From assembly GCA_001600175.1 (NCBI GenBank), contig BCJC01000003.1:1798001-1862000 (forward strand): a stretch of DNA of 64,000 nt. The letters are read 5' to 3'. Made by a program: the position numbers and the translations under genes. Of the stretch, positions 18,891 through 44,570 are shown in pieces. Below the pieces are notes generated by a model. The model made no database searches and was not told the DNA's origin. It worked only from the letters and a program-made list of their open reading frames with translations. Source of the stretch: Erythrobasidium yunnanense. Its lineage: Eukaryota; Basidiomycota; Cystobasidiomycetes; Erythrobasidiales; Erythrobasidiaceae. How positions within the stretch are numbered: position 1 is the stretch's first letter; every line of letters begins with the position of its first letter.

Positions 18891-21800
18891 ATGAGCGTCC
18901 CAGCAATCCACGAGATCTATGAGCAGCGCAACCTCTCGCGGTTCAGGGCTTTCCTCTCCTCTGGCAAGAGTAACTATAAAGGTAAAGAGAGGGATCGGGA
19001 CAACAGCTACAACTATGGGAACGGCGATGCGATAGGACCGGGATCATCATCGTTATCGAAATCACCTAGGTTCCATCAGCAGCATCACCTGGATGGAAGT
19101 GGAGCAAGTAATCAACCTAGCAAAGAAGAAGTAAACGCTAGAGATAGATGGGGAAGAACGGTCCTTCATCTAATCGCAAGTAATGGCGCGGCGGACTCAG
19201 ACGAAGGAGCGCTGGAATACTTGGACCCTCTGCTCGCTTGTACGACGCTGAATGTTAATCTGCAAGATAGGGAGAACGGATGGACTGCCTTGCACAGGTA
19301 GGCTTATCAAGCTTTGCCTAGCAATAAAGCTCTCTTCTGACATAGTGGCGATCTTCTCCTCTTCCCGCAGAGCACTCTATGCAGGCAACCTCATAGGAGC
19401 CCGTCGTATACTCCAGCATCCAGACACCGAGACGAACATCCGCGATCTTGAAGGCTTGACGGCATTCGACCTCCTCAATTCGACACTCTTGGGCACGAAT
19501 CCATCTGATCTGTTAGACAACCTTAGTAAAGAAGAACAAGCTAGTCCAAGACGGGAACTCGTTACGTGGGGTGCGAATAGGAACTTCGTCCTGGGCTTAC
19601 AAGGGGACAGCGACAGGACATTCCCAGAACGCGTACCTCTAGAGCGCGTTGCAGCTTCTTCTCACGCACAAGCACAAGAAGGATCTTCGAGAAGTAAAGA
19701 AGAAGCTTTCGAACCACTTCCAGTCCGCAAAATCGCGATGGAGAAACTCCATTCAGGCCTCATCACAGACGAGAAGAAGGGAAATTTCAGGATATGTGGT
19801 TTTGGATCAACAACCGGAAGATTGGGATACCAGTCGCAGCACCCGCAATTCGCTTTTGAGCCATTGAGGGATTTCGGTCAGCAGACTGTGGTCGACTTCG
19901 CACTGGGTCAAGATCACACGGTCTTGTGTACGGATAAGGGCGATGTGTGGACTTTTGGTTCGAATGTGAGGCTCTCGCACATCAATGATCACCTTTCGGC
20001 CGGCTAATTTGAGCATTATTCGCAGACATTCTCTGTTCTAGGCTATCCCGTCGAAACGTCTACTACGCCTTCTCGGTCCGGAGTAGTCGACGATGGTGTA
20101 CAAGCTTCGCCCAAAAGACTCGTCGGTATTCTCAAGAAGGAGTTCGTGATAGGTGTAGCGGCTTCCCGCTACCACACGGCCGTCTTCACAGCGGACTCGC
20201 TCTTCACTTGGGGCAAGAACAACGGCCAACTAGGCTATCCATCTAACACTACGCCGCTTCAACCTACTCCGCGCCGTGTATCTTCGCTCTCATCACCTAT
20301 CAAGCAGATGTGCGCTACGGAAGTAGCTACTGTCTGTCTTCTCGAAGGCGGAGAAGTGTTTGTCCTGCATCGCGATACGCACTTCAAGATCCTCTTCCCC
20401 ATGTCTCGCTTCCCTCCTTCTATGCAAGTGTATCGACCACCGAACGTCGGCCCTCGACCTGTTATCACGAAAATAGCAGGCAGCGGGACGACTTTCATTG
20501 CTTTATCATCGATGGGCGACGTGTTTTCATGGCAGTTGGATAACCCCTCTCTCGAATCACCGAGCCCAACACCGAGCTCAGGAAGAGATATAAAGCCCGT
20601 ACGGATCTGGGAGGACAGGAAGACATTCACGGCCGTCACGGATGCGTGTATCGCAAATGATACCATCGTGATAGCTACGAGATCAGGACATGTCTACGTC
20701 CGCTCGAGAAAGAAGGAATTGGCTACTGTTAAAGGCTTCGAGCTGCGAGGAGGAAATGCATCATCCGCTTCAAGCAATAATAACAAGAAGTCGCAGTATA
20801 AGTTTACGAGGGTCTCGAATCTCCAGAGAATAGTCAATGTGGCTGTCTCGTCAAGCGGAGGATTCGGAGCTATTCGATCGGACGCACATCTCCTCACTAT
20901 CGATCTGGCGGGTCCTTCACTTTCGCAATGCTTCTTGGCGCTCCTTCCTCACTACAGACGAGCGAAGGCAGAAGCTATTAAGAATGATAGCTTGGACGAG
21001 AACATCCCCCAGACGCTAGACTTGGCCACACATGGCGACGCAGAGGACGAAGAGGACGATGAATTTATCGAAGGCGACAAGATTACGCTCAACACCATCT
21101 GCAAGAGTGTCAGTAACTGGAATCCTTCTTGGTCACTACCTGCTGCAGGGTCGGATATTCTGCTTGTTGCTGGCTCTTCAGGCATTAAGATCCCCGTTCA
21201 TTCCGTCATTCTCTCAGCTCGGAGCGAGACTCTAGCTACTGCTCTTCGTGGCACACCTGTAGAAGGCATCACCTTCTCCCGCTCTGGCACAGATACTCTC
21301 CTCCTTCCACATTGCAGCCATCTATCCGCTCTCCTGCTTGTGCACTACTTGTACGGCGACGATGTGCCTGCCATATACGACCCACGACTCTTCCACAAGA
21401 TCCAAGCTTCTTATCCCGAACTTAAGATCAACCCTTCGCAAATCAAAGCCGAGCTACAAGCTTTGGCGAAAGTACTCAAACTACCCGCACTCAGCCAGGC
21501 GCTTCAGGCATATGGCAAGATGATACCCGAGCCTACTCTGGCTCGCGATATGATCAAGCTTTCCGATAAATACGAGACGGGAGATGTCATTCTCCGATCT
21601 GCATCTCGGAACTTCCGCTGCCATTCACCAATCCTTCGAGCCCGCTGTCCATTCTTCGAAGCGATCTTCGACGATCCAGACTGGTATGCCTCTCGTCGAG
21701 AAGAAGACGACGTCCTCGAGATCGACCTCGAGCATATAGATGCCGATATCATGGCTATAGTGCTACGGCACATATATACGAATGAAGATCATGAGCTATT

Positions 21801-23606
21801 TGGCGGTAGGGAGTTCGCGAAAGTCGATGAAAAGCTGGACTTCGTTACTCTGGTCCTTGCTGCTGCGAATGAGCTCCTGCTCGATCGACTGAAGGCTGCT
21901 TGTTCAGCTGTCATCCGGCCATTGAGTGAGTGGGAGTGCTTTCAGAACATATAGCAACGTGCTGACCGGGATCTTACTTTGCAGTCAATATGCATACAGT
22001 CTGTGCCATTCTTTCGGAGGCGGTCTTCTACGAAGCTGCAAGTCTGCGCGACTGCTGCATGCAGTACATCTGCTGCAACATCGAGACCATGCTCGAACAG
22101 CATCTCCTCGACATATTGCCCAGCGATCCAATGCGGAATCTCAGTCGCTTCTGCCGCAAGCGTCAATTGGACCGTATGCCTCGGACGGCACGTTCAGTGC
22201 CTATCTTAGCTGAGCTGCAGAAGAAGCATGCAGACTGGCTTCAGGAGCTCGATATAGCGAGACCCACCGGATCTTATAAGAAAGCTTTGCGACAAGCTTC
22301 GGCCAAATCTCCCAAACTCTCCCCAGCTATGATATCTACTTCTCTTCGCCTCTCTCCTTGCTTGTCACCGTCTCTCCCTGCTATTTTATCACCCCCTCGG
22401 CGTAGCAATCAACCTGGGTCACTGGAAGAAAGCGTTTCGCCTGAACCTTCGCCTTTAGTGCAAGCGACAACAGCAGACGATATCATGTTCGACATGGACG
22501 ATCTGTCGCTTGATGATCAGCCGTCGAAGTCAAGACCTGGTACTCCATCTGTGATGATGCAAGCTGGTCATCCTCAGCCTTTCGCTCCTACTTCTTCCTT
22601 TAAGGCTAGTGCGCCCTGGCAGCGTGCTACAAGCAATACACCTCCGACTACTAGTCTACGCGACATCATGTCCGCAGACGCATCAGCAACTTCACCCATA
22701 CCTCGCCGGACATCTGAGAGTAGGATGCCACCAGCATCTCCTGCTATTGATGGCTATCCTCTGTCTCCTCCTTCTAAGCTGTCTCAGAAGGATCGCAAGC
22801 GCCAGCAGCAGCAACAAAGCTTGCTTGCTCAGCAAAGTCCGACCGTCACTCCAGCAGCTTCCGTTCCTTGGAGGCCGTCAGCGCCGCCTGCAGCATGGAA
22901 GCCGCCTGTCGCTACTCGAGATCCATCTACACCAAGTCTAGCCAGCATACAATCAGCTCAAGCCGAAGGTTCCAGGGTGCCGGCTACGCCCTCGCCTATG
23001 ATGCGCCGTACAGACAGTGCAAGAGCTTCAGCAACGCCGCCCATGTCCAGTCCCTTGTCAGCTCTGAAGGCTCCTCAGCCACCTCAGGCGCCGGTCGATC
23101 CTGCTTCCGCCGTGGGTGCTCGTGTCATCACTCCTACGAGATTACCTCAGAAGCGGCAAGTCTCGTCCGCAAACGGGCCACCCGAGACCCGAGCATCGGA
23201 TAGGCCATGGGTATCATATACGTCTACCGTATCGGTTCAGCCTATGCTCGAAGACGATAGCAATCAATCTTTCGCTTCTATACAGAATCTACAGGCTACT
23301 GAGCGAGAGGCTCTGCGCGTCAAGCGGGGTGCAATGAGTCTAGCGGAGATACAAGCTGAAGAGAACAAGCAGCGAGAAGAGGCAGCCTTCCTGTCATGGT
23401 TTGAAGAGGAAAGCAAGCGGACCCAGGCTGAATTGGGCATGGGCTCATCGGAGCAGACTCAGCCTGCTGGCAGAGGCGGTCGTGGAGGTAATAGGGGAGG
23501 CAAGAGAGGTGGCGGTGCAGGACAAGGCCAGCGCGGTAGAGGAGGTGCGAGAGGCCGAGGTCGAGGGAAAGGTCCTTCTTCCGAGCTAGCTCGAGTAGAT
23601 GATTAG
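18891..23606 (+). CDS. IBtk-like ankyrin-RCC1-BTB protein with RGG tail
   Basis: Introns 19298-19370, 19966-20025 and 21926-21984 give about 1,507 aa. Order: ankyrin repeats at ~85-180 (DRWGRTVLHLIASNG, NGWTALHRALYAGNL); RCC1 repeats at ~215-440 (FRICGFGSTTGRLGY, ADSLFTWGKNNGQLGYP); BTB 1 near 710 (DILLVAGSSGIKIPVHSVIL); BTB 2 near 850 (GDVILRSASRNFRCHSPIL); then a Pro/Ser-rich region and an RGG/RG box near 1460-1495. The first four parts match the inhibitor of Bruton tyrosine kinase (IBtk) family, substrate adaptors for CUL3 ubiquitin ligases in animals. A fungal CUL3-adaptor role is inference. The Arg/Gly C-terminus suggests RNA binding or arginine methylation and is unexpected for this family. 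Confidence 0.85.
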
Positions 23607-41555: not shown

Positions 41556-43262
41556 ATGTCGCGCGACTCTCCAGTACGGTTGCCCGCTGAACTTGCTGGC
41601 CAAAAGCTAATGATTTTGGAGCTACCAGGCGGACAGCAGCGAGAAGGAGAACACGCCAGCTGGCAAATCCATGCGAAGAAGCTCGACGAGCAAGAATAGA
41701 GCGAAACAGCCGCAGCAAGCAACGCGCGTAGATAGCGCGAGCGACGCCGACGAAATGCAGATTGACAAGCAGCCTGCAAGCCAGGCAGCAGCGAATGGCA
41801 ACGAGCAAAATGATGACAACAATGATGATGATGAAGAGATGGAGACTGCTGCCTCAAGGCGCCGAAAGAGCAAAGGCAAAGCATCCAGTCGGAGCCGGCA
41901 GCAAGAAGAGGAGCCAGAAGAACAAGATGGGCCAAACGACCAGGATGAGCAGCAAGACGAAGAGCAAGAGCAAGATGAACAGGGTCAATATGACCCAGAT
42001 CAGCGTGAGAAGCTGTCCGCGTGCATAGACAGACTCTGCCTGACGCGCCTAATCTGCCCAGCTTTGGACGAGAAGCGCAAGATTAGAAAGGAATACAGAG
42101 ATTTAACTTCGAATCTGAATGGTAGGCTGTCAGCCCGCCTCAACTGACCCGTCCGTAAGTGCTGACGAGACATTGTGCTATCCACAGCCGAACGCGCTCG
42201 CGATCCAGAGGCGCTTACTGCAGCCCGTATCACAGAAGGGATAGCAACAGCCGATAGGTTTTTCTCGACAGTCAAGAATCCTGCGGAAGCTATTCTAGAC
42301 TCGCAATTCCTCATGGTCACTTCTGAAGTAGCTATGAACCAAGCTCGGAAGCTCAAGATAGGGGGCGACTACTTCGATACGGATGATTTCCTCAACAAGA
42401 TCAAGATTGTCGTGTCTGGCGCTGCTGTACGACGCGTGCCGGGATCGCAGAATCGTAGACGGCGCAACGCGTCGGATGACGAAGACGACGAGGAGTATGC
42501 AGGTACCCGAGATCCTGTCGTAGGGTGGGACTCGATTGGCAAACTTGCGACACGGCACACCCTGCGCGTACCACCCATCGATTTCATGTGAGTTTTAGCG
42601 ATCTGGAGTTGACTCACAAGCGCTTAACGTGCTTTCCGCAGGCTGGGACCGATTGCGATACCGCAAAAGAAGAAAGTGCAGAAGAAGCAGCGCGTCCAAC
42701 AAGCTAGACTGAAGGAATCTGACAGAGTGCAAGCGAAAGAGGTATGTGACCGAAGCGAGTCAAGCGTCCATTCTGTACTGACTAGCCTATGCTCAGCTCG
42801 ATCATACCGACATTCAAGCGGAAGTACAGACTACCGAGCTCGTTCGAAAGGTCTGCGACATTCTGGAGAAGGAGGGCGTTGGAACGGGAGTCAGCTTCTT
42901 CAAGTTCTTCATTAATCCCGAAAGTTTTACACAAACAGTAGAGAATCTTTTCTACATCTCTTTCCTCGTCAAAGACAGGAAAGCGAGCATAGAGTACAAC
43001 GACGAGCAGGAGCCGATTATATGTGAGCTCGGCAAACACTCAAAAGCATCGCAATCGTTCTTATGCTGATTTCGCAGCAATTCCAGATGCATGCGAGCCG
43101 CCGAACGAGGAGGACCGTTCAGAAGGCATTAAGGCTAGACAGCTCGTTATGGAACTCGATAAGCAGATGTGGCGCGATGCTATCGAGGCATACGACATCA
43201 CTAAGCCTATGATTCCAACAAGAGAGTATCAGGAACGAGTGAGGGGAAAGTGGTATGGTTGA
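41556..43262 (+). CDS. NSE4: Nse4, SMC5/6 complex kleisin
   Basis: Introns 41574-41628, 42122-42187, 42588-42641, 42742-42796 and 43023-43077 give 473 aa. After an acidic, Gln/Glu-rich N-terminus come Nse4 blocks: EKRKIRKEYRDLTSNLNAE, DPEALTAARITEGIATAD, DSQFLMVTSEVAMNQARKL, FDTDDFLNKIKI and the C-terminal winged-helix NPESFTQTVENLFYISFLV, KDRKASIEYNDEQEPII. Nse4 is the kleisin that joins the SMC5 and SMC6 heads, required for recombination repair. Exon 1 carries just six codons (MSRDSP). It lies about 330 bp downstream of SSN3 on the same strand. Confidence 0.92.
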
Positions 43263-43609: not shown

Positions 43610-44570
43610 ATGGACTACTACGTCTTCGGGTGAGGGCAACATGCAAGAGCATACGATTCTAGGCTGATGGAGCACCGCAGATATGGCTGTAAGAAGCTCA
43701 AGACAGCTTCTCCTGGTCTGATTCGGTCACGGCTGATGTTCGCCCAACATGGTGCTTGACTGTTCCTTCAAGAAGCTTTGATATGGAAGCCTCCTCCTCA
43801 TATTGCTGAACGAATACCTGGCTATATCTCTGGCTTCTCCCGGCGCTTCGCCCGTGCGCGATCTAACTATCTATTCCTACGCAATTGAAAAGTGACCTGT
43901 TCTATCCATCTCCATAGAAAGTTCACATGACCACAGAGGTACTGAAGAGCACCCTGGGGTAGTCGCTACCCTAGTGACAGCCAAAGACTGGCATGAGCTT
44001 CCAGACGCCGATGACCTGCCAGACGGAGATCTCGTCTGGGGTGTTGCGTATAAGATACACCCAGAGTATGCAGAAGAAGTTAAAGCGTATCTGGATCACC
44101 GGGAAAAGGACGGTTTCACAATAGCATCGGTCGATGTCTGCAATATCGTAAATGGGAACGAGCAAGTGGTAGTCCGAGGTGTAAGTCCTGATCACCAAGC
44201 GAAGATTTTGCATAGCTAACGCTTCTATGTAGGCGCAGGTGAGCGTTTCTCGAGCTCAAAAACATTTAGGATGCTTCGCTTAGGTAGACAAATTTCAACA
44301 GACCTACGTGGGTCTGCGCGAGAACCCTTCTTTCTTCGGTCCAAAGCCCTTAGATGAGCTGGCTGACATCATACATAGAGCGGAAGGCCGTAAGTGCACG
44401 ACTTCAGTGAAGATGTGGCTTGCTAAGCAGCTCTTCCAGCATCTGGGAAGAACTCTGAGTACCTATACAAACTGCACGAAGCTGTGGCCAAGCTGTGTCC
44501 ATCTTCAACGGATGTATACTTAGACGAGCTGAGCAAGCGGGTACATAAGCTAGACAGCGCGAATGCCTAA
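43610..44570 (+). CDS. GCG1: ChaC-type glutathione gamma-glutamylcyclotransferase
   Basis: Seven coding exons: 43610-43629, 43681-43688 (8 nt), 43776-43853, 43918-44180, 44233-44238 (6 nt), 44302-44389 and 44440-44570, together 197 aa with all phases consistent. The product shows MDYYVFGYGSLIWKPPP, IPGYISGFSRRFAQSSHDH, GTEEHPGVVATLV, VWGVAYKIHPEYAEEVKAYL, DHREKDGFT (catalytic Glu in the YxxxREK-like loop) and YVGLRENPSFFGP. ChaC/Gcg1 enzymes split cytosolic glutathione into 5-oxoproline and Cys-Gly. The 8-nt exon supplies the YGS of the substrate-binding YGSL motif; without it the motif cannot be formed. The 6-nt exon adds Ala-Gln where the family has Ala-Leu. Confidence 0.88.

Follow-up and report, generated by a model that had tools for sequence, protein, structure and literature searches.

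The ChaC gene and its surroundings

The analyzed DNA, here called the window, is a 64,000-nt stretch of Erythrobasidium yunnanense contig BCJC01000003.1 (positions 1,798,001 to 1,862,000). Its plus strand carries a ChaC gene, for which we built a seven-exon model of 594 nt that encodes 197 amino acids followed by the stop codon. Exon 1 (43610..43629, 20 nt), placed by its ATG start, its GT donor and spliced alignment, encodes MDYYVF and the first two bases of a glycine codon. It is followed by intron 1 (43630..43680, 51 nt, GTGAGG...CAG), whose donor and acceptor lie at the 39th and 81st percentile of 113 training introns, and which carries a branch-like CTGAT motif 14 nt before its end. The next exon is only 8 nt long (ATATGGCT, 43681..43688) and was located by a unique join, shuffle controls and homologue alignments. 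Downstream of this microexon, intron 2 (43689..43775, 87 nt, GTAAGA...AAGAAG) has a donor and an acceptor at the 10th and 25th percentile of the same training set. Nine of the 113 modeled training introns start with GC rather than GT, which is seemingly many; the choices of the aligner may contribute to this number.

The remainder of the gene begins with exon 3 (43776..43853, 78 nt), which reads (S)LIWKPPPH...RRFA(Q) in translation and in spliced alignment with homologues. Intron 3 (43854..43917, 64 nt) separates it from exon 4 (43918..44180, 263 nt, SSHDHRGT...VVVRG), which was delimited by translation and alignment with homologues and includes an REKDG segment. Intron 4 (44181..44232, 52 nt, GTAAGT...TAG) leads to a probable second microexon of 6 nt (44233..44238, GCGCAG, Ala-Gln), placed by gapless alignment to the homologue P0001 and less well supported than the first. 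Intron 5 (44239..44301, 63 nt, GTGAGC...CAG), exon 6 (44302..44389, 88 nt, TYVGLRENPSFFG...), intron 6 (44390..44439, 50 nt) and exon 7 (44440..44570, 131 nt, GPSGKNSEYLYKL... to the TAA stop codon) complete the model. Introns 3 to 6 were set by the gene model together with splice-site scoring, and exons 6 and 7 by translation and spliced alignment.

The protein matches the Pfam ChaC profile (PF04752) from position 2 to 175 of 176, with an E-value of 1.2e-52 and 178.9 bits against a family cut-off of 21, in keeping with the preliminary description, which had called the product a ChaC enzyme. In its loop VFGYGSLIWK, residues G7, Y8, G9 and S10 are nearly invariant and L11 is invariant among 26 aligned sequences; E98 is likewise invariant in all 26. 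We take the YGSL loop to have a substrate-binding role and E98 to be presumably the catalytic glutamate. The full-length match ties the protein to the ChaC family, as do its [FY]GYGSLIW loop and its REKDG segment. Solved relatives in this family (PDB 5hwk, 5hwi, 6k95, 6ky0, 6ky1) are named glutathione-specific gamma-glutamylcyclotransferases, and by this likeness the gene product is predicted to be such an enzyme. Measured against the family, the protein itself shows nothing unusual, and only the exon structure stands out. An exon-by-exon search of the organism's own genome, in which three candidates were scored, returned one match, exon 4 of the same gene, and no second ChaC match. Two scans of viral contigs found no encoded relative.

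Upstream of the ChaC gene, on the same strand, positions 42166-42588 encode an Nse4-Nse3 binding domain (PF15412), so that this neighbor is probably the SMC5/6 subunit Nse4. Elsewhere in the window, an open frame at 20008-21948 has RCC1-like and BTB domain matches.

A very small exon of the ChaC gene and a probable second one

Joining 43610-43629 to 43681-43688 and then to 43776 onward yields MDYYVFGYGSLIWK. The 8-nt exon thereby provides the third base of the Gly7 codon, all of Tyr8 and Gly9, and the opening base of the Ser10 codon. Its coordinates, its sequence and the flanking introns of 51 and 87 nt had been given exactly in the preliminary description. Both introns are of the GT..AG type (GTGAGG...CAG upstream, GTAAGA...AAG downstream), and at 8 nt the exon falls within the class of microexons, defined as coding exons of 3-30 nt (PMC9929638) lying between spliceosomal introns.

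To evaluate the join, we enumerated all paths that start at any ATG within 400 nt and contain at most two introns, allowing GT or GC donors, introns of 30-200 nt and a middle exon of at most 60 nt. In this exhaustive enumeration, the path through the 8-nt exon is the single join that places [FY]G[YF]GS ahead of the Leu codon at 43778. Loosening the motif to [YF]GS gives 46 joins, and the 40 that were listed all share the donor after 43688 and the acceptor before 43776. When the DNA separating exon 1 from exon 3 was dinucleotide-shuffled with the outer splice sites kept, G[YF]GS could be reached by any join in 16 of 20,000 shuffles. The earlier statement that the YGSL loop can be obtained only through this exon is upheld by the single solution.

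Homologues led to the same exon. A purpose-written spliced aligner recovered it with 117 of the 120 listed homologues (the best 120 of 839 found) at each of three intron penalties. The three exceptions, P0001, P0046 and P0051, have deposited N-termini that themselves lack the motif. Furthermore, the real alignment score of the exon was reached by none of 1000 shuffles for each of the references P0002, P0006, P0020 and P0024. As judged from reading frame and homology, the 8-nt stretch is a real coding exon of the ChaC gene.

Exon conservation in relatives was judged from deposited protein models. The closest named ChaC homologue among the 120 listed of 839, P0001 from Cystobasidiomycetes sp. 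EMM_F5, is 68% identical; its deposited sequence starts with MALIWK and has nothing of what precedes exon 3, including what exons 1 and 2 encode. The Cronartium model P0046 is garbled just before SLIW, and that of the agaric Leucocoprinus, P0051, just before its WKPPP. Other Pucciniomycotina models, for example from Melampsora, Atractiella and Rhodosporidiobolus, are intact at the loop. The garbled models suggest that some relatives have an intron at the loop position. The preliminary description held that such exons are missed by gene finders, which is plausible and would fit the truncated P0001 model if the gene behind it carried such an exon. We also considered that the P0001 model might begin within a microexon of the relative itself, but dropped this idea, as the splice phases do not fit.

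The stretch GCGCAG at 44233-44238, missed in the preliminary description, is a probable second microexon of the gene. With it included between VVVRG and TYVGL, the segment RGAQTYVGL aligns without gaps to PNAEVYVGL of P0001, and its alanine matches 15 of 25 aligned homologues chosen from the 120 listed. At intron penalties of 7, 11 and 15, the 6-nt exon was chosen with 64, 36 and 18 of the 120 listed homologues, while 32, 50 and 60 of them led to a model that skips it directly. In the shuffle test, the real score was equaled or exceeded in 0 of 1000 shuffles with P0001 (margin over the shuffle mean 7.1), 0 of 1000 with P0002, 16 of 1000 with P0006 and 30 of 1000 with P0024. The margins for the last three references are all 0.2 or less, so that among these four a clear preference is seen only with P0001. 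Skipping the exon keeps the frame, gives a 195-aa protein and shifts the Pfam score by 0.3 bit. Intron 5 contains a further AG upstream of its acceptor, in frame and ending at 44283, whose use would lengthen the protein by six residues.

Small exons in other conserved genes

To place these exons in their genomic context, we surveyed small-GTPase and ubiquitin-conjugating-enzyme genes from elsewhere in this genome; their exons were modeled by spliced alignment with yeast proteins, and each gene was labeled by the best-matching yeast protein. A total of 25 GTPase and 15 ubiquitin-conjugating-enzyme loci were fetched; a score cut of 280 left 22 of the former and 8 of the latter for counting and removed 3 and 7, respectively. 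The resulting 30 models (of 40 loci) contain 147 introns with a median length of 64 nt; their density over the aligned coding sequence is 9.8 per kb. Internal exons of at most 20 nt, down to 5 nt, make up 18 of 117 and occur in 13 of the 30 genes, five of which have two each. The 13 loci with internal exons of 5-20 nt comprise Ran, Rab-, Rac/Cdc42- and Ras-like genes as well as ubiquitin-conjugating-enzyme genes (L035, L037, L038, L039, L042, L047, L049, L050, L051, L053, L061, L065 and L066).

All 18 exons were subjected to 300 shuffles each, and the real score was reached by 0-1 shuffles for 14 exons, by 4-6 for three and by 30 for one. None of 300 shuffles matched the 5-nt exon that a Rab11-like gene has within its GKSNLLSRF motif, the 6-nt exon inside a conserved motif of Ran or the 12-nt exon of a Rac/Cdc42-like gene, and one of 300 matched a 5-nt exon of one Rab5-like gene. 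Another Rab5-like gene has an 8-nt exon (YKS), for which 5 of 300 shuffles reached the real score, and also a 14-nt exon (ITNA), both of them within conserved motifs. This 8-nt exon is one of the three in the 4-6 range, which are exons of 8 nt in L035, 8 nt in L042 and 13 nt in L066. The exon with 30 of 300 is an 11-nt exon in L051 that was not recovered on its own local stretch and is probably false; it was kept among the 18, and the count of 13 genes is unaffected since L051 also has a 20-nt exon.

The 8-nt and 14-nt exons of the Rab5-like gene were recovered with all 120 listed homologues of 7985 scored. The closest of these, P0121, is 92% identical, has the residues that both tiny exons encode, and is a protein of 225 aa on a contig of 937 nt. 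The introns of the Rab5-like gene described here total 561 nt; together with 225 codons they would exceed this contig, so that P0121 appears to derive from the spliced transcript of a relative. It offers indirect support that such tiny exons are included in mRNA. The closest named Rab5 protein among the 120 listed of 7985, P0122, is 89% identical and comes from EMM_F5, the source of P0001. It is intact at both tiny-exon sites, and deposited models of this lineage are thus not always wrong. Taken together, these two EMM_F5 proteins probably place the window in or near Cystobasidiomycetes, a class of Pucciniomycotina.

Random intron placement would give 24 internal exons of at most 20 nt (95% range 16-32), compared with the 18 observed. 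For exons of at most 10 nt, 12.6 are expected at random (range 7-19) and 5 were observed; the aligner penalizes, and in part cannot see, the smallest exons. The genome thus tolerates small exons. The very smallest are in short supply, in part perhaps because the aligner is blind to them. Exons of at most 10 nt may also carry a size cost.

Proposed splicing of the microexon and its significance

The reading we favor, at a probability of roughly 0.9, is that the 8-nt exon is real and constitutively included in transcripts of a glutathione-specific ChaC gene with seven exons; intron definition would be the mode of splicing in this intron-dense genome. Two introns that come to lie close together in such a genome would leave a tiny exon between them. 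If the two ends of every short intron are paired by the spliceosome, the intervening exon would need little or no minimum size, and removal of either intron would leave a longer exon beside the remaining one. We infer the splicing of the mRNA by the predicted joins, its mode and order, and the constitutive inclusion of the exon from the sequence, the frame, homology and the similar exons in other genes. For basidiomycetes, recognition of splice sites as pairs that span the intron has been predicted (PMC2397502). With such a prediction, the short introns, and exons of at most 20 nt in 13 of 30 genes, we do not follow the preliminary description in regarding so small an exon as a challenge, through exon definition, to splicing in this organism. 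In C. elegans and mammalian cells, inclusion of microexons is reported to need PRP-40, which is proposed to act via intron definition; the need is relieved once a flanking intron is made shorter (PMC8378409). FF-domain matches occur at two places in the genome studied here.

Several fungal systems offer points of comparison. The P450 genes of Phanerochaete chrysosporium, also a basidiomycete, are described as having coding exons down to 6 bp (PMC1184071), an 8-nt exon inside the conserved motif AGHETT (PMC12940212), and frequent small introns of 45-55 bp (PMC1184071, PMC12940212). This likeness in tiny coding exons spans a different fungus and different families, the genes here being ChaC, small-GTPase and ubiquitin-conjugating-enzyme genes. 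In Fusarium CYP621A, a 1-nt exon in 24 genes, with transcriptomic evidence according to the abstract (PMC12940212), was likewise deduced from the frame that a conserved motif demands; it lies in an unusually long intron region (139 nt in Fusarium). The 20-nt microexon of Trichoderma Xlr2 is similar in that its length is not a multiple of three, its absence alters the protein and a gene model missed it (PMC11121469). Fusarium is an ascomycete whose 1-nt exon has transcriptomic evidence, and glucose-dependent inclusion is reported for Xlr2 (PMC11121469), whereas the ChaC exon is predicted from sequence. Fungal microexons of 1-8 nt are therefore already in print (PMC12940212, PMC1184071), and a constitutive microexon of 4 bp is described in MPC1 (PMC9929638). 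The Cryptococcus neoformans genome paper uses the word "microexon" once, in its read-mapping method (PMC3990503). Among the papers listed for Pucciniomycotina and Cystobasidiomycetes, no title or opening of an abstract concerned microexons in the latter class, and at the same level the matches listed for ChaC and alternative splicing yielded nothing on a fungal ChaC microexon.

The preliminary description also proposed that inclusion of the exon could be a regulatory switch on glutathione breakdown. Skipping, intron retention or use of an upstream AG would then produce a non-functional mRNA and less glutathione breakdown under some condition. Skipping does shift the frame, as had been stated, and gives MDYYVFGFDMEASSSYC* with an early stop. 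All four alternatives tested stop early, after 17 aa upon skipping, 9 aa with the proximal AG, 7 aa with intron 1 retained and 32 aa with intron 2 retained. The proximal AG belongs to a tandem acceptor, AAGAAG (43770-43775), at the end of intron 2, and its use brings a stop right after MDYYVFGYG. At 87 nt, intron 2 also exceeds the median of 64 nt, and its sites are weak; with a donor at the 10th percentile and the tandem acceptor, its splicing may be inefficient. These sites may thus cause some unproductive splicing, and they are the only feature seen that could favor a switch; the flanking introns are otherwise ordinary. Xlr2 shows that a switch is compatible with a length of 20 nt, the multiple of three being a tendency of regulated microexons rather than a strict rule (PMC11121469), and the 8 nt of the ChaC exon are not such a multiple either.

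Against a switch stand the small exons of the other housekeeping genes. Just 4 of the 18 have a length divisible by three, a share that gives no hint of regulated cassettes. As the remaining 14 would break the frame as well, a frame break on skipping carries no special signal. We found no positive evidence for the proposed regulation and consider it improbable. That the exon is a chance match, in a gene that is broken or read via another path, is hardly credible, given an otherwise intact, full-length and conserved enzyme, no second ChaC match among the three candidates scored in the genome search, a motif obtainable by no other enumerated join, and shuffles that rarely (16 of 20,000 for G[YF]GS joins) or never (0 of 1000 in alignment, four references) reproduced it.

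Constitutive inclusion under intron definition remains the preferred reading, and the findings support a very small exon at the conserved loop of an enzyme and the recurrence of such exons in conserved genes of one genome. For annotation, they matter because the closest deposited ChaC protein (P0001, among the 120 listed of 839) lacks the loop. For splicing theory, the 18 exons of at most 20 nt stand beside the 24 (range 16-32) of random placement. Neither a new mechanism nor a regulatory switch is demonstrated, and the small exon is, by the best reading, ordinary gene structure in this fungus. More tentatively, at what we judge to be slightly below even odds, exon length may have practically no lower limit here, with intron positions near random and constitutive exons of 5-20 nt in many conserved genes. 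If so, gene models in this lineage would often be wrong at tiny exons, and the fungus would lend itself naturally to testing how splicing works by intron definition alone.
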